From Candidatus Gerdarchaeota archaeon (GTDB lineage Archaea; Asgardarchaeota; Heimdallarchaeia; JABLTI01): DNA of 16,667 nucleotides. This document shows positions 923-12,028 of the stretch, piece after piece. Within the stretch, counting starts at the first letter, position 1, and each line of letters starts with the position of its first letter. A program made the translations under genes and the position numbers. Location: the NCBI GenBank assembly GCA_016839405.1, contig JAEOUJ010000055.1, positions 1 through 16,667 of the forward strand. Direction: 5' to 3'. Below the pieces are notes generated by a model. It was not told the DNA's origin, made no database searches, and worked only from the letters and a program-made list of their open reading frames with translations.

Positions 923-3442
923 TTATTTTCTCTTACGAGCTAAAACAATTACTACACACAAAGAAACAATTCCACTTAAGGTGATATAGAAAGTAAATCC
1001 GGGGAATAGACCAGCTCTTGTACTTGTCCAAACAGAAGTTGCATTCAAGTCTACCATAAGAGTTACAGAAGCACTACATGTGATATAGCCCGTACCAGCA
1101 TAGTAAGCATTTATTGCATATATACCAGTTTTACCACTAACCTCTAATTGGAAATCTCCATAAGGATCAGTTACAACATTAGCATCTGTTCTTTCTCCTG
1201 TGATTGTTTCTTTTATAATAAGAAATACTGTTCGATCTCCTTCTGCTTGTGGCATATATTGTTGTGGTACATCTTCTAAATAGCTAAGTTCTCCTATGAT
1301 TGTGAAGAAATTCTCATCTCTTATTGTTGCATCAATATTCAAACTACTTCGATACATTATAGTCGCTGTTAATGTTACTCCTCCAAATGGTGTAAGATGC
1401 ATATCACCAACAAAAGTGTTATCGTCTGAATCATAAATAACATTCGTTGATGCTACAAGATCTGCTTGTATAGTATCTGTTGGTCGAGCATTAGGTCCTG
1501 GTGTGATTTCAATATTGAATGCTTTTGCTTCATTTGGTCCAAAAGTGTGGAATTCACCGATACCATTCCCTGTTACATTCCATCCTTCAGTTACACCTAA
1601 AATGTTGATATGGATTTCTTTTGTTTCTTTCCATGGATTCACGACTGTGAACTCTTTACTTACAGGTCCATAAACTGCTTCTGGATTAAATAATATTGGA
1701 ACTGGTGCACCACCTGCAGTCACTTCAAAGAAGTCAATGTTTTCCTGTGCGTCATTATTTCCAGTATTATCTTCTAAAATATGATTCGTTATTACAACTT
1801 TCACGCAAGAATGCATGTCCATTATTCCTGTATCGGTTGGTTCAACATCATATTCTGGAGTCCAATCAACATAAACTTCTTGAGTTGTTCCTTTAACAAT
1901 AGTAAGACCAGTAACAGTATCGATTAAAGACCAAGTGCCACTTGCTCCTGCACCTATTGGTGTGTTTTCATAGAATTTTACTTCAACACCACTTGCATCA
2001 GCATCACCGATATTACTTATCTTTGCATAAAGTCTATTTTCATAATTTAATAATGGATCGTCACCATTGCCTACTGGATTGTGTCCATCACCATCATTGT
2101 GTCTAAACCATCCCCAACCATTAATTGGACTATCGACATAGATATCAATTGATTCCCATGGACCTGGATAACCTGGCGGATCACCCCATTCATTAATCAT
2201 TAAATCTGGTGTTCCTCCAGCGGAATTTGTTACAGTTATATCATAACCATCAAATGAGAAATCATCAATGGAAATTGTTATTCCATTTCCAGCATCAGTA
2301 AATGTTTGACCTACATCATATAAACAATCTTGTAAATCAACTACTGCGTTTGCATCTGATCCAGGGGTGCTATCCATATCTGAACATTCATCATTATCAT
2401 TAGCACCTTCATCGACAAGATAAATTAGCACACCTTCATCAGGCAACCAAGCATCTTCAGATTTTTGTTCACAGACTTCAACACGATAATATTTAGTTGA
2501 TGAAATTTCAACTTTCAATGCTAGTATATCACCACCAACTGCATCTAAGTGCCTCGGTCTAACATGATAGCTTCCACCACCTCCACCTGCAATAACTACT
2601 TGATTAATTGCTTGATCAAACCAACCAGCATAATCATCAATTACCTGAGTATAAACACTGCAAGCAGATGGATATGCTCGAGCCATTAAGCTATAATAAC
2701 TTGCATAATTTTTCTGTGTAGTACCACCAGAACCATGAGTGTGTCTTAAGAGGAAGCAATGACCCATTTCATGGCATACTCGACCCCAGACTTCTTCTAT
2801 ATCTTCTGGATCTCTTTCAGAAACCAATGTTGCTTCTCTATTGAATGAACCTTCATCTGTATCAATAGCAACTTTTGTACCAAGAGTACTGACTCCACGC
2901 CACCAAACAGTACTTAGCATGATTATTATATTGTCATAAGCTGCGAAATTAACATCTGGATCAGCAAGTGCTACAGCATCATCAACAATATCATGCCAAT
3001 TAACATCTAGATCAAGTGCACCATCATCAAGATGAGCATAGTGTGCTAGATTATTTCCTAAATCATACCATCCTTCAACAGCCCAATCAATGGACATTAA
3101 ACCACGAGTAGCATTAACCCAATAATCATCAATTGTTTGCATAATATCTTCATGTTCAGCTTTAGTCCATCTAGGTGTTGCATAATCAGAAAAGTAGCAA
3201 AGAAGTACGATGTAACTTTGAGGACCGGTTCTTGCACTTTGTGTTTCAAAGTCCTTTTCAATTGGAGTAACTTTGAAATCAGAAATAAGCATGTCATTCT
3301 GAACAATTTTATTAGGACTGCTAAAACTTATCTCTTGTATCGAATTATTATAGGATATGGTATTATTCACAGTATTAAACATTAAAAAACTACTAAAAAT
3401 TAGTGTTAAAACCATTATAATTTTTGGCAAAGACTTTTTCAT
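923..3442 (-). CDS. Secreted, membrane-anchored zinc metalloprotease (M6/metzincin-like)
   Basis: Predicted extracellular protease of 839 residues. Residue numbers here count from the TTG one codon upstream (3445). A basic N-terminus and hydrophobic stretch (residues 3-28) form a signal peptide. The zinc site is HEMGHCFLLRH (H225, E226, H229, H235), followed about 20 residues later by SLMARAY, which fits a Met-turn. The catalytic region covers roughly residues 75-285. Residues 410-575 resemble an M6 tail plus a CARDB-like adhesion module, and further beta-rich modules follow to about 800. The end (LFPGF, one hydrophobic helix at about 816-835, then RKRK) is a surface anchor of the PGF/Asgard CTERM style. 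Shine-Dalgarno GGAGGG (3454-3449) lies six bases before the ATG at 3442, which is favoured over the TTG at 3445. Classic M6 enzymes differ around the third zinc ligand, so the exact family is less sure than the protease call. The substrate is unknown. Confidence 0.78.
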   Translation of the reverse strand: MKKSLPKIIMVLTLIFSSFLMFNTVNNTISYNNSIQEISFSSPNKIVQNDMLISDFKVTPIEKDFETQSARTGPQSYIVLLCYFSDYATPRWTKAEHEDIMQTIDDYWVNATRGLMSIDWAVEGWYDLGNNLAHYAHLDDGALDLDVNWHDIVDDAVALADPDVNFAAYDNIIIMLSTVWWRGVSTLGTKVAIDTDEGSFNREATLVSERDPEDIEEVWGRVCHEMGHCFLLRHTHGSGGTTQKNYASYYSLMARAYPSACSVYTQVIDDYAGWFDQAINQVVIAGGGGGSYHVRPRHLDAVGGDILALKVEISSTKYYRVEVCEQKSEDAWLPDEGVLIYLVDEGANDNDECSDMDSTPGSDANAVVDLQDCLYDVGQTFTDAGNGITISIDDFSFDGYDITVTNSAGGTPDLMINEWGDPPGYPGPWESIDIYVDSPINGWGWFRHNDGDGHNPVGNGDDPLLNYENRLYAKISNIGDADASGVEVKFYENTPIGAGASGTWSLIDTVTGLTIVKGTTQEVYVDWTPEYDVEPTDTGIMDMHSCVKVVITNHILEDNTGNNDAQENIDFFEVTAGGAPVPILFNPEAVYGPVSKEFTVVNPWKETKEIHINILGVTEGWNVTGNGIGEFHTFGPNEAKAFNIEITPGPNARPTDTIQADLVASTNVIYDSDDNTFVGDMHLTPFGGVTLTATIMYRSSLNIDATIRDENFFTIIGELSYLEDVPQQYMPQAEGDRTVFLIIKETITGERTDANVVTDPYGDFQLEVSGKTGIYAINAYYAGTGYITCSASVTLMVDLNATSVWTSTRAGLFPGFTFYITLSGIVSLCVVIVLARKRK

Positions 3443-3620
3443 CAATTGCCCTCCAATTTAACATTTTATTCTTAAAGAAAACCTCTATTTCTTAATAAAG
3501 ATTCTTAACTTGACATATGTGGAAAAAAAATTTTTTGCACACATTATTTGTTTTATTGATAGAATACAATCATTAAATTCTTATAGCTGTTGTATACCAA
3601 CCTTTTCAGAGGAAAAAAAA

Positions 3621-3875
3621 TTGAGCGTCAATACAAAGGAAACATTACGAGCCTATATATTAATGAACATAAAATTAGGTTCAACCAATAATGTATTAGC
3701 TAAATTAAAACAAATTCCAGGAATTACCTCAATAGCAGTAATTACTGGTGAATATGATGTAATTGTTCGTTTAGAAACAAATTCCTTTGAGGAAATGTTT
3801 GATAGAACTCAAGATATTCACCTTATTGATGGGATTGAAGAAACAACTACTTCGATTATTCAAAAAGAATTCTAA
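3621..3875 (+). CDS. Stand-alone Lrp/AsnC-type ligand-binding (RAM) domain protein
   Basis: Small protein of 84 residues consisting almost entirely of one Lrp/AsnC ligand-binding domain without the usual DNA-binding helix-turn-helix. The beta-alpha-beta-beta-alpha-beta pattern is clear: RAYILMNIKLG, a helix ending in KQIPGI, SIAVITGEYDVIVRL, a second helix, then EETTTSIIQKEF. Stand-alone RAM proteins are known to bind amino acids and to assemble into ring oligomers or onto full-length Lrp proteins. The frame is open upstream to an ATG at 3510, but the extra 37 residues are Cys- and Phe-rich and unlike the family. The TTG at 3621 follows AGAGG (3608-3612) by eight bases, so I chose it. It ends 32 bases before the RAM-tailed transporter and shares its ITGEYD core, so the two probably form an operon and may interact. 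The ligand is unknown. Confidence 0.8.
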   Translation: MSVNTKETLRAYILMNIKLGSTNNVLAKLKQIPGITSIAVITGEYDVIVRLETNSFEEMFDRTQDIHLIDGIEETTTSIIQKEF

Positions 3876-3907
3876 TATAAAAATCAAAAGATTTCAGAGG
3901 GATTAAT

Positions 3908-5296
3908 ATGACCGATAGAGGTAGCAGACCTTTCCGAAAAATTAGGAGAAGATATTCTTTCATTATTTTAGCAATTCTCTCTGGAATTATTGGAGCAATT
4001 TGGATTGCTATTGATACCTATACAGGTTCTGCCATCATTGTTAATAGTCTTGGTGAAACCAATGAATATGTTTTTGCAATTCAATCAATGCTTATTGGTG
4101 TTATTATTAGCGTCATTTTTGCTCTTATTTTATGGATTCCAATTAGTAAAAAACCGATTAATGAATTCATTCAAGCACTTAAAGATCGTAGACAAAATAA
4201 AGCAAATCACATCAAAAAACCATTAGTTAGTAAAGATGAAAAACGTCAATTCTCTTATCTTGGGCAATACATTGATCCTCAATATCATGGCATTCGTTTA
4301 CCAAATAAGAAAATGTTACTTTGGTTATTTTTATCTGGGTTGCTTTCAGGAATTAACACCCTAGTTTATTTCATAATAATTAAAGATATGGATCTTTCAA
4401 TTTTCTTACCGACTTCTCAATTTGTTGTTGTTTATTTAATTCTTGGTGATTTAATTGTAGATAAATCTCGCCCAGGTGCTATTGAAATTCAATCTATAAT
4501 TATGATTTTCTTGGGTGTTATCTTAGCAGCTATTGATTTTACCACTAGTAGTGGTTCATTTAATTGGGTAAATCTCATATTGGTTTTCTTGGTCTTAAAT
4601 ACAACTGCTGCTGTTTATGTTGTTTTCCAAAAGAAAACTGTTGAAACTAAATTTGATACTGGGGAAAATTTAGACTCAACAAATATACGTCTATGGACCT
4701 TATTTTTCATGGCATTTTTCACAATTATCTTCTCATTACCTTTTATGAATGCAGAAGGATTTTCTGTTTTCAGGACTACCTTTATCCCTGCTCTCTTGCC
4801 CATATCAATTTCTATGTTGCTAGTTTTTATTGCTCGTATTCTTTATGTGAGAGCACTTTCGATGGGGAAAATGTCGATAGTTAATTCATTATCATCCATC
4901 TCAGTAATTGCTGGCATACCAATAACATTGATTTTTAATCTTATCTGGCCTATTCACTTCCCACTTCCAAGTGGAAATTACGCATGGGTGGTTTGGTTAT
5001 TAAGAGGAATTGGTTCATTACTTGTGTTTAGCGGCATAATAGGCTTAGCAATGAGCGAAGTAAAAATAATGATTTTAGCGAAAGTAAAAGCAGGAATGGC
5101 TTGTGATTATGAGAAAATAAAAGCTATTTCAGGTATAGAGAAGGTTTCAGTTATTACCGGAGAGTATGATTTAATGATTATTTTACGAACACGTACTATA
5201 GGTAGAGGATATCAATCCATAGTAGAAAAACTCGAGTTATTGCCTTGTTTATACGAAATTGTATCCAATCCTGTTTTGAAAGAATGGAATTCTTAA
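3908..5296 (+). CDS. Ten-helix DMT/EamA-type transporter with C-terminal Lrp/AsnC sensor (RAM) domain
   Basis: Membrane protein of 462 residues. Ten hydrophobic segments lie at about 17-36, 55-79, 135-157, 164-184, 193-211, 219-240, 262-280, 293-316, 323-348 and 358-382. They are split into two halves by a polar loop (80-133), the arrangement of drug/metabolite (EamA/RhaT) transporters. The positive N-terminus (RPFRKIRRR) predicts a cytoplasmic start. Residues 385-460 form a complete RAM domain: EVKIMILAKVKAG, KAISGIEKVSVITGEYDLMIILRTRT, a helix, then CLYEIVSNPVLKEW. With an even helix count this domain is cytoplasmic, where it could sense a solute and gate transport. The start ATG has GAGGG seven bases upstream. 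It follows the stand-alone RAM gene by 32 bases. Family relatives export amino acids or move nucleotide-sugars; the substrate here is not evident. The DMT call comes from topology, while the RAM call is clear. Confidence 0.78.
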   Translation: MTDRGSRPFRKIRRRYSFIILAILSGIIGAIWIAIDTYTGSAIIVNSLGETNEYVFAIQSMLIGVIISVIFALILWIPISKKPINEFIQALKDRRQNKANHIKKPLVSKDEKRQFSYLGQYIDPQYHGIRLPNKKMLLWLFLSGLLSGINTLVYFIIIKDMDLSIFLPTSQFVVVYLILGDLIVDKSRPGAIEIQSIIMIFLGVILAAIDFTTSSGSFNWVNLILVFLVLNTTAAVYVVFQKKTVETKFDTGENLDSTNIRLWTLFFMAFFTIIFSLPFMNAEGFSVFRTTFIPALLPISISMLLVFIARILYVRALSMGKMSIVNSLSSISVIAGIPITLIFNLIWPIHFPLPSGNYAWVVWLLRGIGSLLVFSGIIGLAMSEVKIMILAKVKAGMACDYEKIKAISGIEKVSVITGEYDLMIILRTRTIGRGYQSIVEKLELLPCLYEIVSNPVLKEWNS

Positions 5297-5427: not shown

Positions 5428-6684
5428 ATGAAGAAAAAAATAATATTATTTTCCAGCTTTATTATTGCTTGTTTTTTCTTGTCAATATATTTACCTGTAT
5501 CAGCTACTGGAACCTATATAATAGAAGAAGAAGGACAGTTCTATGATGATAGTGGAGAAGCTATTGGTCTTTTTGTAAGTGGGAATTACGTTTATGTAGC
5601 TGATGGAATAGATGGATTAGAAATTATTGATATAACTGATCCTAGCAATCCAACAGAAGTAGGTAACTATTACAATGATAGCGGAGAAGCTTTAGAAGTT
5701 TTTGTAAGTGGGAACTATGCTTTTGTTGCTGATAAAGAAGATGGTCTAGAGATTATTGACATTAGCACTCCCAGTAGTCCAACAAAAATTGGAGCATATT
5801 CTGATGGTGAAGATGTTTTATGTGTTGCTGTGAGTGGAAATTATGCTTATATCGGTGATACAGAAGGTGTGAAAGTCATCGATGTTAGCACTCCTAGCTC
5901 ACCAACAAAGGTAGATGAGGATATAGTACCACCATTTCCAGTAATAGATGTTTTAGTTGTTGGTGACATTCTCTATACAATTGGCGGAAATTACTTTACA
6001 TATGACATTAGTACTCCAAGCGCTTTAATCGGTTTAGGTGCTTATTTAGAATGGGCCTTTCAATTAAAAGTTGCTGTAGGTGGAGATCTCGCATACATTG
6101 CAAGGTCAAATGGTGGTTTCTATATTGTTGATGTTTCAGATCCTTCTGATCCATTTGTGGTTGGTGGTTGGCAATATGGCACATTAACTCAAACTAAGGA
6201 TGTAGCAGCAGATGGTACCCTTGTTTTTAGTGCTTATGGTCCTTATGGTATATATGTTGTTAATGTCACTTACTATCCATTAGTTATTGATCCAGAAAAA
6301 ACTGACATAGATTTACAAGGGCAATATTTTGATGATAGTGGAGTGGCAAAAGGCATTCTTATTGATGAAAATTTTATCTACATAGCAGATGGTACAGATG
6401 GTCTTGAGATACTTGAATATGCTTGGGATTCAGACGAAGATGGTCTTAGTGATGATGAAGAAACAACTTTAGGTGACGATGGTTACATCACGGATCCTGA
6501 TGATCCCGACTCCGACGACGATGGTTACACTGATAAAGAAGAATTTGACGCTGGTACTAATCCTAATGATCCAGAAGATTATCCTGTAACTGAAACCGCT
6601 GGTCTCACTACTGGCATTCTTTTAATCATTAGTTTTCTCAGTCTATTCAGTTTAGTATTTATTTCCACTAAACGTAAAAAGTGA
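5428..6684 (+). CDS. Surface LVIVD-repeat beta-propeller with acidic Ca-binding-type repeats and C-terminal membrane anchor
   Basis: Predicted surface protein of 418 residues. A signal peptide (1-26) probably ends at LPVSA. Seven LVIVD-type repeats of about 40 residues run from 36 to 331, opening at GQFYDD, GNYYND, GAYSDG, DEDIVP, GAYLEW, GGWQYG and GQYFDD. Each mostly carries a strand like GNYAYVAD followed by GLEIIDIS.PS.P. Seven units fit one closed seven-bladed propeller, and the last blade resembles the first. Residues 333-386 are Asp-rich (DSDEDGLSDDEE, DSDDDGYTDKEE, GTNPNDPED), the pattern of thrombospondin type 3/dockerin-like calcium-binding repeats. A final helix (392-412) and KRKK anchor it to the membrane. 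The function is probably adhesion or protein binding; no catalytic motif is seen. The start follows GGATGGTG by five bases. A terminator-like hairpin overlaps the stop codon. Confidence 0.85.
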   Translation: MKKKIILFSSFIIACFFLSIYLPVSATGTYIIEEEGQFYDDSGEAIGLFVSGNYVYVADGIDGLEIIDITDPSNPTEVGNYYNDSGEALEVFVSGNYAFVADKEDGLEIIDISTPSSPTKIGAYSDGEDVLCVAVSGNYAYIGDTEGVKVIDVSTPSSPTKVDEDIVPPFPVIDVLVVGDILYTIGGNYFTYDISTPSALIGLGAYLEWAFQLKVAVGGDLAYIARSNGGFYIVDVSDPSDPFVVGGWQYGTLTQTKDVAADGTLVFSAYGPYGIYVVNVTYYPLVIDPEKTDIDLQGQYFDDSGVAKGILIDENFIYIADGTDGLEILEYAWDSDEDGLSDDEETTLGDDGYITDPDDPDSDDDGYTDKEEFDAGTNPNDPEDYPVTETAGLTTGILLIISFLSLFSLVFISTKRKK

Positions 6685-6710
6685 GCTTCTTAGCTCCTTT
6701 TGTTTTTTTC
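6683..6710 (+). terminator. Hairpin plus T-tract terminator
   Basis: GAGCT, loop TCTT, AGCTC (6683-6696) followed by CTTTTGTTTTTTTC and more T-rich sequence to about 6720. The hairpin begins at the second base of the stop codon of the propeller gene. The T-tract alone would suit archaeal termination, and the hairpin makes the call stronger. Confidence 0.65.
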
Positions 6711-6786
6711 TTTTTTTCTTATATTTTCTAATAATTTCTAACTAATTTTTATTAAAGCAAAATTTTTTTGAGTTTAAAGTTATAAG

Positions 6787-6794
6787 TTTATATA
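6787..6794 (+). promoter_or_regulatory. TATA box for the small TPR-like gene
   Basis: TTTATATA, a near-consensus archaeal TATA element. Initiation about 25 bases downstream would place the transcript start near 6813-6818, immediately before AGGTGG and the ATG at 6829. Confidence 0.5.
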
Positions 6795-6828
6795 GAATTA
6801 TGTTACATTAAATAGCTAGGTGGTTTCA

Positions 6829-7104
6829 ATGTCTCGTTTCACAATTAGCTATGATATTCTCAAAAAATTAATCGAACCTTTTACTGCTAAATGGGAAAAT
6901 CCATTTGATATTTTAGGCTATTTTGTCAAATATACTAGATTCCACCCTGATAGACCAGAGGGTTGGTTTGAATTAGCTAGAATTAAATCTTTTATTGGTT
7001 TGATTCGATCTGCTGAGAAAAATCTGATGAAGTGTTTTGATTTATCTATAGAATATCAATTGCTTGCAGAACAGGATAAATTACTAAAACCTCTTCTAAA
7101 GTGA
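6829..7104 (+). CDS. Small helical protein with one TPR-like repeat, function unknown
   Basis: Protein of 91 residues. Residues 40-74 (from PDRPEGWFELARI to AEKNLMKCF) have the spacing of a single tetratricopeptide-type helical hairpin, with W46, L49, A50 and A62 in consensus positions. The N-terminal 38 residues are also helical (YDILKKLIEPF, FDILGYFVKY). TPR units usually bind proteins, and one repeat with capping helices could act in a complex or as a dimer. The start is the ATG at 6829, five bases after AGGTGG (6818-6823). A GTG at 6820 is in frame but lies inside that Shine-Dalgarno motif and is rejected. It has its own TATA-like promoter and no evident partner, since the next gene is convergent. 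I do not recognise a named family. Confidence 0.7.
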   Translation: MSRFTISYDILKKLIEPFTAKWENPFDILGYFVKYTRFHPDRPEGWFELARIKSFIGLIRSAEKNLMKCFDLSIEYQLLAEQDKLLKPLLK

Positions 7105-7250
7105 ATTCATCTAACTAAATATTCTAATTAGTTCAACATGCATATTTAATTTTATAGACTTTAAATTAACAAATCATAATCTAATATCAATAAATATTCA
7201 ATCCATTCTTCAATTAATTCAAAATCTGAAATGATCTTACATTTGAATTA

Positions 7251-8184: not shown

Positions 8185-9171
8185 ATGATTGAAAAAGAAA
8201 GAAATTCTCTAAACCTAACAAATTACATCAGAATGTGTGGAGAATTAGCATGTCTCTTAGAAGTTTCAGCTACTCCAAAACCCGGTAATGTACATCGATT
8301 TAGAGATTTTCATGATTTGCGATATGAAGATTTTCTTGCTTCAAGTGTAACATTAGGTTATTGGATAGAAGAACTAGCACTTAAAGGGAGTCAAATTAGA
8401 ATTAATCCAACCAAATGGCTGGATTTACATCTAGGTGAATCAATAAAAAAAGCAATAGAACAAAGCAATTTCTTTCATAATAGCGGAAATACCAATTTAG
8501 GGATAATTCTATTATTTGCCCCCCTTAGTGTTGCTGCTGGTATTACTTTTGATTCAAAGAGATTTATTTGTGATAGTAGTGATTTAAAACTGGCTGTAGT
8601 TGATGTTATAAAACATACAACTGTAGAAGATGCTATAGCTGTTTCAGAAGGCATAAAAATTGCTAATCCAGGAGGGCTCGGTGATGTAGCTAAATATGAT
8701 GTAAAAAGCGATTCAATTCAAGAAGAATTAATTCAAGATAATATAAATTTGGAGCTTTTAATGCTCAATTGTAAAAATCGTGATAATATCTGTTATGAAA
8801 TATCACAAGGATATCTAATAACTTTTCATACAGGTTTACCAACATTACAAAGAACTCTTAGTAGATGTAATGATATCAACATAGCTACTATTAATACTTA
8901 TTTAGCAATTCTTGCTGCTTATCCAGATACACTCGTGAAAAGGAAATTTGGTCAAGAAATGGCTACAACAATTTCAGATAAGGCAAAGAAAATCTTAGAT
9001 CTTGGAGGAGCATTGACAATTGACGGAAGACGAGAGCTTGAAGAGCTAGATATCGAATTAGGTGAAGAAATAGAAAAAATTAATCCTGGAACAACAGCTG
9101 ATTTAGTTGCTGCAACACTTTTTGCTTATCTTTTATCAGGAGGTAAACTTTGGGCTGTGAGAGAAAAATAA
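8185..9171 (+). CDS. Triphosphoribosyl-dephospho-CoA synthase family protein (CitG/MdcB-like, COG1767)
   Basis: Protein of 328 residues. Bacterial relatives make 2'-(5''-triphosphoribosyl)-3'-dephospho-CoA from ATP and dephospho-CoA, the prosthetic-group precursor for citrate lyase or malonate decarboxylase. Family marks seen: ATPKPGNVHR (29-38), a glycine/asparagine core NSGNTNLGIILLFAPL (99-114; CitG has NTHKG here), VEDAIAVSEG, NPGGLGDVAKYDV (161-173), and a C-terminal helical part ending NPGTTADLVAATLFAYLLSGG. The NTNLG and NPGGLG forms are those of the archaeal branch, whose reaction is not firmly known to me. No citrate lyase or malonate decarboxylase gene is in the window. The start ATG has only a weak Shine-Dalgarno (GTAAG). 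The protein is soluble and cytoplasmic. Family membership is sure, the exact reaction is not. Confidence 0.85.
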   Translation: MIEKERNSLNLTNYIRMCGELACLLEVSATPKPGNVHRFRDFHDLRYEDFLASSVTLGYWIEELALKGSQIRINPTKWLDLHLGESIKKAIEQSNFFHNSGNTNLGIILLFAPLSVAAGITFDSKRFICDSSDLKLAVVDVIKHTTVEDAIAVSEGIKIANPGGLGDVAKYDVKSDSIQEELIQDNINLELLMLNCKNRDNICYEISQGYLITFHTGLPTLQRTLSRCNDINIATINTYLAILAAYPDTLVKRKFGQEMATTISDKAKKILDLGGALTIDGRRELEELDIELGEEIEKINPGTTADLVAATLFAYLLSGGKLWAVREK

Positions 9172-11419: not shown

Positions 11420-12028
11420 TTAATCTTGTTGTTGCCAGAAACTAAAATCCTCTTCTTCTTCTTCATCGTCTTTTTTCTTGGCATCTTTTGGTCTCTTTAT
11501 TTCTTTTTGGTAAATGACTTCAACCAAACCTTTGAATAAATCTGGAACACTAACACCTGTTTTAGCAGAAGTTTCTAAATACATGAGATTTTTCTCAGTG
11601 GCAAATTTCTGAGCCTCTTCTGTTGAAACTTTTCGTTGAGAAGCAATATCTATTTTATTTCCTGCTAGAACAACTGGAATATTACCTGCATTTTGTCTGA
11701 TTTGCTTTAACCAATAATCAAGAGCATTAAATGAATTTCTATTAGTAATATCATAAACTAAAACTCCTCCAGCTGCTCCTGAAAAATAAAATGGTAAAAG
11801 AGACATAACAAATTCTTGTCCACCTGTGTCCCACAATTGTAATTTAATTTTCGCATTATTTATGTTTAGGTTCTTGGTTAGAAAATCTACTCCTAATGTT
11901 GGTAAATAAGATTCGCGAAATCGATCTTCTGCAAATCTTATAGTTAAACTTGTCTTACCTACTTTTCCTGCTCCGACTATAATTACTTTGAATAAATGTT
12001 TGTATTGTGGTATCCTCGTTTTGGACAT
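11420..12028 (-). CDS. Ras/Rab-like small GTPase
   Basis: GTP-binding switch protein of 202 residues with all five G motifs: P-loop GAGKVGKT (19-26), switch I T44 in SYLPTLGVDF, DTGGQE (67-72) for switch II, NKID (124-127) and TSAK (153-156). Rab-like character shows in LPTLGVDF and KLQLWDTGGQE. Rab has DTAGQE; the second Gly here is closer to Arf/G-alpha DxGGQ. The extension 178-202 is a Lys patch followed by a run of Asp/Glu and FSFWQQQD, with no C-terminal cysteine. Prenylation is therefore not expected, as for most Asgard small GTPases. Such proteins are thought to act in membrane or cytoskeletal control with roadblock/longin partners. The start ATG follows GAGGG by seven bases. It lies 96 bases downstream of the gelsolin-like gene on the same strand. 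Confidence 0.95.
   Translation of the reverse strand: MSKTRIPQYKHLFKVIIVGAGKVGKTSLTIRFAEDRFRESYLPTLGVDFLTKNLNINNAKIKLQLWDTGGQEFVMSLLPFYFSGAAGGVLVYDITNRNSFNALDYWLKQIRQNAGNIPVVLAGNKIDIASQRKVSTEEAQKFATEKNLMYLETSAKTGVSVPDLFKGLVEVIYQKEIKRPKDAKKKDDEEEEEDFSFWQQQD

Follow-up and report, generated by a model that had tools for sequence, protein, structure and literature searches.

The locus and its two proteins

The window, by which we mean the whole stretch of 16,667 nucleotides that was analysed, carries on its forward strand a short gene for a stand-alone RAM protein, followed by a gene for a membrane carrier that itself ends in a RAM domain. The RAM domain is chiefly familiar as the sensory half of the Lrp/AsnC transcription regulators. 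The features of the pair are the following:

3621..3875, forward strand: stand-alone RAM protein of 84 aa with a TTG start, the predicted soluble sensor half
3843..3851, forward strand: codons of Thr75-Thr76-Thr77, which form the Thr-x-Thr signature of the stand-alone protein, from residue counts and the joint alignment
3908..5296, forward strand: DMT-fold carrier with a C-terminal RAM fusion, 462 aa
3947..5050, forward strand: membrane part of the carrier, residues 14-381, with ten membrane helices read from the secondary structure of the model
5060..5278, forward strand: fused RAM domain, carrier residues 385-457
5192..5206, forward strand: codons of Arg429 to Arg433, the basic positions of the fused RAM, from residue counts in 87 fused RAMs

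The structure model of the carrier has the DMT fold with its ten helices. The EamA score of this protein is 21.7 bits, which is below the curated Pfam cut-off of 28.2, and two relatives (P0036 and P0163) have a precomputed PF00892 label; the family is therefore at the edge of the Pfam EamA model. The top structural match is the choline importer LicB, and the DMT matches do not fix the substrate. Both termini are predicted from positive charges to be inside in all 19 aligned carriers, with at least 20 Lys plus Arg residues inside and at most three outside (30 to 1 in the window carrier). The RAM domain is accordingly predicted to be on the cytosolic side of the membrane.

The C-terminal part of the carrier is modelled as a RAM domain, with a pLDDT below 50 at residues 430-433, and the fused RAM is present in 163 of the 164 carrier homologues that were fetched. 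No RAM-less carrier was found among the close relatives of the window carrier. The 84-aa protein scores above the cut-off of PF01037 (AsnC_trans_reg) and has the RAM fold; its other Pfam matches are weak ones to NapD and ThiI_fer, and the PII family is not among its matches up to E 1. No helix-turn-helix family appears among the Pfam matches of either protein up to E 1. The NCBIfam regulator models match the RAM part alone, far below cut-off. The N-terminal helix-turn-helix of an Lrp/AsnC transcription regulator was thus found in neither protein. These results bear out an earlier note on this DNA, which had described a transporter ending in a RAM domain, with no helix-turn-helix in the pair, and they remove its worry that the fusion could be an assembly artefact missing from close relatives or that the C-terminal part would not fold as a RAM domain.

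Many such membrane carriers have public names like DNA-binding Lrp family or Lrp/AsnC transcriptional regulators; an example is the carrier at 5998-7236 of locus L025 and its relatives. This is likely to be a systematic misannotation.

The window contains neither a tRNA nor an Rfam match at the gathering score. The locus comparison found no conservation of the window's own gene neighbours, which are uninformative for the pair. Genes noticed elsewhere in the window include a small Ras-family GTPase (11420-12028, reverse strand; PF00071, E 1e-53), which fits an Asgard archaeon, and an LVIVD-repeat protein (5428-6684, forward strand; PF08309, E 4.8e-52) that by eye has a signal-like start, a C-terminal hydrophobic stretch and a KRKK end and is probably on the cell surface. 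An 840-aa secreted-looking protein (923-3445, reverse strand) has a CARDB match, a weak metallopeptidase match and an HExxH-like stretch seen by eye. Finally, a CitG-like protein (8185-9171, forward strand; PF01874, E 1e-70) is far below the NCBIfam cut-offs for triphosphoribosyl-dephospho-CoA synthases, and so it is a divergent member.

The carrier and its neighbour across the archaea

With the window carrier as query, 46 homologues were found at E 0.001 in the protein collection, and a Thermoplasmatales relative as query found 712. Among the matches listed (names and labels for 120 of the 712 in the second search), the sources are named as Heimdallarchaeota, Asgard group archaeon, Promethearchaeota, Thermoplasmatales and Thermoplasmatota. 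A scan of species-genome contigs with two short patterns gave at least 63 carrier loci, titled Heimdall-, Baldr-, Odin- and Njordarchaeota, Thermoplasmata/Thermoplasmatota, Thermoplasmatales and Euryarchaeota, together with one uncultured archaeon and one Thermoproteota; the genome search places the last of these (genome G006) in the same phylum as a Heimdallarchaeota genome, G001. The carrier is present at E <1e-50 in 85 of the 227 genomes of this Asgard phylum and in 69 of the 292 sampled genomes of the phylum of a Thermoplasmatales chromosome (G005), counts that were made by hand from the search tables and include some fragments at contig ends. The range is a lower bound, as the genome-by-genome search covered two phyla and the pattern scan missed at least the clade with the RAM gene downstream.

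The loci were collected via the carrier and not via the RAM gene. They contain 130 carrier ORFs, or 90 distinct loci once duplicates are removed, and in 82 of the 90 a stand-alone RAM ORF adjoins the carrier on the same strand. The RAM gene is upstream of it in 65 loci and downstream in the other 17. The two genes are -4 to 42 bases apart in 80 loci; in the remaining two (L016 and L061), which were counted as they stand, the carrier frame is interrupted by a stop or split into several frames. Seven of the eight unpaired loci are cut by contig ends. In four of these (L008, L051, L062 and L063) the contig breaks off at the 5' side of the carrier itself. Three (L078, L092 and L093), which belong to the clade with a downstream RAM, have 169, 7 and 120 bases left downstream. 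The eighth, L089 in genome G216, is a true absence, and hence the pair is present in 82 of the 83 loci that can be assessed. RAM places do occur in other parts of the G216 genome, and the tblastn identity of the four that were fetched to the downstream-type RAMs does not exceed 40%; the latter are at least about 58% identical to each other in the pairs listed. Thus, the adjacency that the earlier note had seen in a single stretch of DNA is a conserved property of the family. When only the upstream side was counted, 65 of 84 loci were paired and the partner seemed to be missing from 18 loci of one Asgard clade; looking on both sides placed it downstream in that clade.

The number of PF01037 matches is 4 to 21 per genome in the seven genomes searched. 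RAM genes are therefore few, and a chance neighbourhood was rejected in view of the 80 loci of 90 that have one within 42 bases. The highest number, 21 RAM-domain places, is that of genome G003 (the source of L012, titled Baldrarchaeota), and the six others have 4 to 8.

The other neighbours differ with the type of locus. Of the 65 loci with an upstream RAM, 20 have an M29 aminopeptidase gene (PF02073, at E 5.2e-100 in the one gene tested) that starts -37 to +61 bases from the end of the carrier gene, and in a 21st it starts 719 bases downstream. The purF gene (TIGR01134 above cut-off for the one gene tested) is within 4 kb downstream of the carrier in 26 of the 65, and the M29 gene often stands before it. 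Both are neighbours at Thermoplasmatales-type loci, and neither was found beside the Asgard loci examined. The M29 neighbour suggests amino-acid handling; the proximity of purF may reflect a shared transcription unit alone. In the six loci of the reversed-order clade that were inspected, a DUF7121-type protein is upstream and an ABC-type ATPase follows the RAM gene.

Two RAM lineages with different pocket residues

A tree of 189 RAM domains was built from 63 upstream, 17 downstream and 87 fused RAMs, to which 22 further RAM ORFs of these or related genomes were added; L060 and L061 were left out. In it, the 80 stand-alone RAMs that are paired group together relative to the 22 further ORFs (support 0.83), and a second clade (support 0.947) contains all 87 fused RAMs, with a single other ORF, OTH_L156_1, inside it. 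An interim IQ-TREE maximum-likelihood tree without support values gave an identical grouping. Stand-alone and fused RAMs are thus two old, separate lineages.

The loci with the reversed gene order group as a single clade whether the tree is built from the carrier, the fused RAM or the stand-alone RAM (supports of 1.0, 1.0 and 0.99); these trees were compared for 78 of the 82 paired loci. As the reversed-order RAMs are in the same lineage and the three trees are concordant, the partner was kept with its carrier through the change in gene order. Over the 78 loci, the three trees have distance correlations of 0.92 to 0.93, values that still include the shared species history.

The two lineages also differ at positions of the effector pocket. 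Thr75 is present in 79 of the 80 paired stand-alone proteins and Thr77 in all 80. The equivalent positions have Thr in 15 and 16 of the 22 other RAM ORFs, and in none and 28 of the 87 fused RAMs, respectively. By way of the fused profile and then the joint alignment, the two positions align with Thr132 and Thr134 of ST1022, a glutamine-binding regulator. We take these two residues to contact or hold the effector of ST1022; the PDB contains structures titled as its T132A and T134A mutants. The residues that contact the amino-acid backbone are well conserved in RAM proteins, in which the pocket lies between dimers (PMC2995911). Since the signature is stricter in the stand-alone partners than in the other RAM ORFs, it points to a retained ligand.

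The earlier note had pictured two RAM sensors of the same kind. This would hold for the stand-alone protein, which keeps the Thr-x-Thr signature, and does not suit the fused domain, which has lost the first Thr in every case; a reading in which both are equal sensors was rejected for this reason. With the first pocket Thr gone and the second kept in a minority, the fused RAM looks like a docking or relay half. Ligand binding by the fused RAM itself is possible, because 28 of the 87 keep the second Thr and the Gly and Asp of the core are retained. All 87 have Arg429 and a Lys or Arg at 433. The column of residue 432 is acidic in 54 of the 63 upstream and all 17 downstream stand-alone RAMs (9 of the 22 other RAMs). 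A basic fused domain and an acidic stand-alone column would suit an interface between the two, at a loop, 430-433, that is poorly modelled.

A putative transport switch and its alternatives

A RAM domain on a DMT-fold carrier, the absence of a helix-turn-helix in both proteins and a dedicated RAM neighbour favour direct control of transport by a metabolite-binding RAM, which is the most economical reading. We propose a two-part, post-translational switch that consists of the carrier with its cytosolic RAM and the dedicated stand-alone partner, and we would give this proposal an even chance of being correct. The stand-alone RAM, made from the neighboring gene, would pair with the RAM domain of the carrier and, with its pocket signature, would sense an amino acid or some metabolite related to it. 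The fused RAM, in which the first pocket Thr is missing and an invariant Arg and a basic residue have been acquired, would be the docking and relay half. Ligand binding would then alter the association or the shape of the mixed RAM assembly, and the carrier would be either opened or blocked. The carrier would most likely be an exporter that relieves amino-acid excess in archaea that use peptides or amino acids.

Several parts of this scheme have precedents. The FL11-DM1 hetero-octamer is a mixed RAM assembly formed in vitro, and amino-acid effectors are known for RAM proteins (PMC2995911). Amino-acid exporters of the EamA family have been characterized (PMC11005379), and by analogy the transport mode is probably amino-acid efflux. 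However, LicB, the top structural match, is an importer, and so the direction is one that we infer. The EamA, YddG and AexA exporters differ in that they have no RAM domain and are controlled by transcription factors. Direct control of a transporter is described for the C2 domain of MetNI and for the GlnK-AmtB and SbtB-SbtA pairs (PMC10710835). In MetNI a cytosolic C-terminal domain halts transport when it binds the amino acid that is carried (PMC10710835), and the carrier would work in a like manner if our proposal holds, its RAM being predicted by charge to be on the same side of the membrane. MetNI is, however, an ABC importer without a separate soluble partner, and the likeness would be one of working. 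GlnK and SbtB resemble the stand-alone RAM as small soluble sensors that dock on a transporter, GlnK also in being encoded beside it (PMC10710835), but they are PII proteins and their carriers have no copy of the sensor domain. A genetic parallel is PA2577/PA2576 of Pseudomonas, where a RAM-type protein is coupled to an EamA-type carrier (PMC8707732). There, PA2577 acts through DNA as a repressor of the carrier gene, whereas here no helix-turn-helix was found and a RAM is also part of the carrier.

A search for RAM stretches in other large ORFs gave six places and no second type of RAM-bearing transporter among them. Two look like artefact frames that surround a usual RAM or HTH-RAM gene where the DNA is rich in GC. 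The other four (L128 1792-3201, L129 1-1086, L130 2356-3813 and L131 2064-3479), from four Asgard-phylum genomes, encode 2-isopropylmalate/homocitrate-synthase-like enzymes that end in a RAM domain, with NCBIfam run on L128. The RAM on these enzymes perhaps provides feedback control of an amino-acid pathway.

Other explanations of the pair have to be weighed against the switch. The same two-part switch could serve a cargo or ligand that is not an amino acid, such as a purine precursor, a choline-like compound or 2-oxoglutarate. We think this unlikely but worth keeping in mind: purF is within 4 kb in 26 of 65 loci, the choline carrier LicB is the top structural match and DM1 is reported to respond to 2-oxoglutarate (PMC2995911), but the structural matches leave the substrate unfixed and the M29 gene, directly after the carrier in 20 of the 65, often comes before purF. 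The pair could instead be a membrane trap, in which both RAMs bind Lrp proteins that have a helix-turn-helix, so that the state of the carrier is reported to transcription and transport is uncontrolled. Other RAM proteins do exist in the same genomes, as the 4 to 21 matches in each of the seven indicate, and a stand-alone RAM can form a hetero-assembly in vitro with a complete Lrp protein (PMC2995911). Yet the constant neighbor is a RAM protein without a helix-turn-helix, an HTH-RAM protein is no constant neighbour, and a further RAM ORF is nearby in L020 alone (142 aa, 1219 bases downstream), all of which makes the trap improbable.

We would grant an equally small probability to a purely structural role, in which the fused RAM is an oligomerization or stability domain, the stand-alone protein is an assembly subunit and there is no ligand control. 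The missing first Thr in 87 of 87 fused RAMs would agree with this, as would the RAM-type domains of AhbA/AhbB sirohaem decarboxylase, which do not sense (PMC4145669), although that is a soluble enzyme whose HTH-like N-terminal domains are kept; the pocket signature of the stand-alone partners, 79 and 80 of 80 against 15 and 16 of 22 in other RAM ORFs, argues the other way. An assembly artefact, a chance fusion or a chance neighbourhood, for which nothing speaks except the sub-threshold Pfam scores of a single window sequence, is scarcely conceivable with the fusion in all but one of the fetched homologues and the neighbour in all but one of the assessable loci. The switch thus continues to be our preferred reading. 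Somewhat more tentatively, we suggest that it may represent an ancient class of archaeal transporters under allosteric gating. In this obligate two-gene switch, a soluble RAM that binds an amino acid would form mixed rings or dimers with the degenerate RAM of a DMT exporter and so open or close it.

We found no description of a RAM-tailed carrier with a stand-alone RAM partner in the open-access papers that were searched, which agrees with the earlier note's remark that it knew of no such system. Nothing on a RAM-tailed carrier appears in the sections drawn on here of a survey of Asgard transporters (PMC7997004) and of one of conserved archaeal membrane proteins (PMC5898192). The stand-alone RAM proteins DM1, STS042 and TTHA0845 are described, in the cited part of a 2010 review, alone or together with Lrp regulators, while the partner here is a carrier; the same review called the physiological role of archaeal stand-alone RAM proteins without a helix-turn-helix unclear (PMC2995911). 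Control of a transporter directly by a small-molecule domain is already known; it is RAM as the module that would be new. To our knowledge, there is no prior case of a RAM module in the direct control of a transporter.

In conclusion, a defined lineage of stand-alone RAM proteins goes together with a single transporter in both Asgard and Thermoplasmatales-type archaea, and the comparison exposes a naming error, as many membrane carriers are labelled Lrp transcriptional regulators in public data. If the proposed switch is true, it would be the first known case of direct transporter control by a RAM module and would join a short list of such controls that includes the MetNI C2 domain, CorB-type proteins and PII. 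It would also provide a physiological role, with a testable partner, for at least one class of stand-alone RAM proteins, and it would bear on the amino-acid economy of Asgard archaea.
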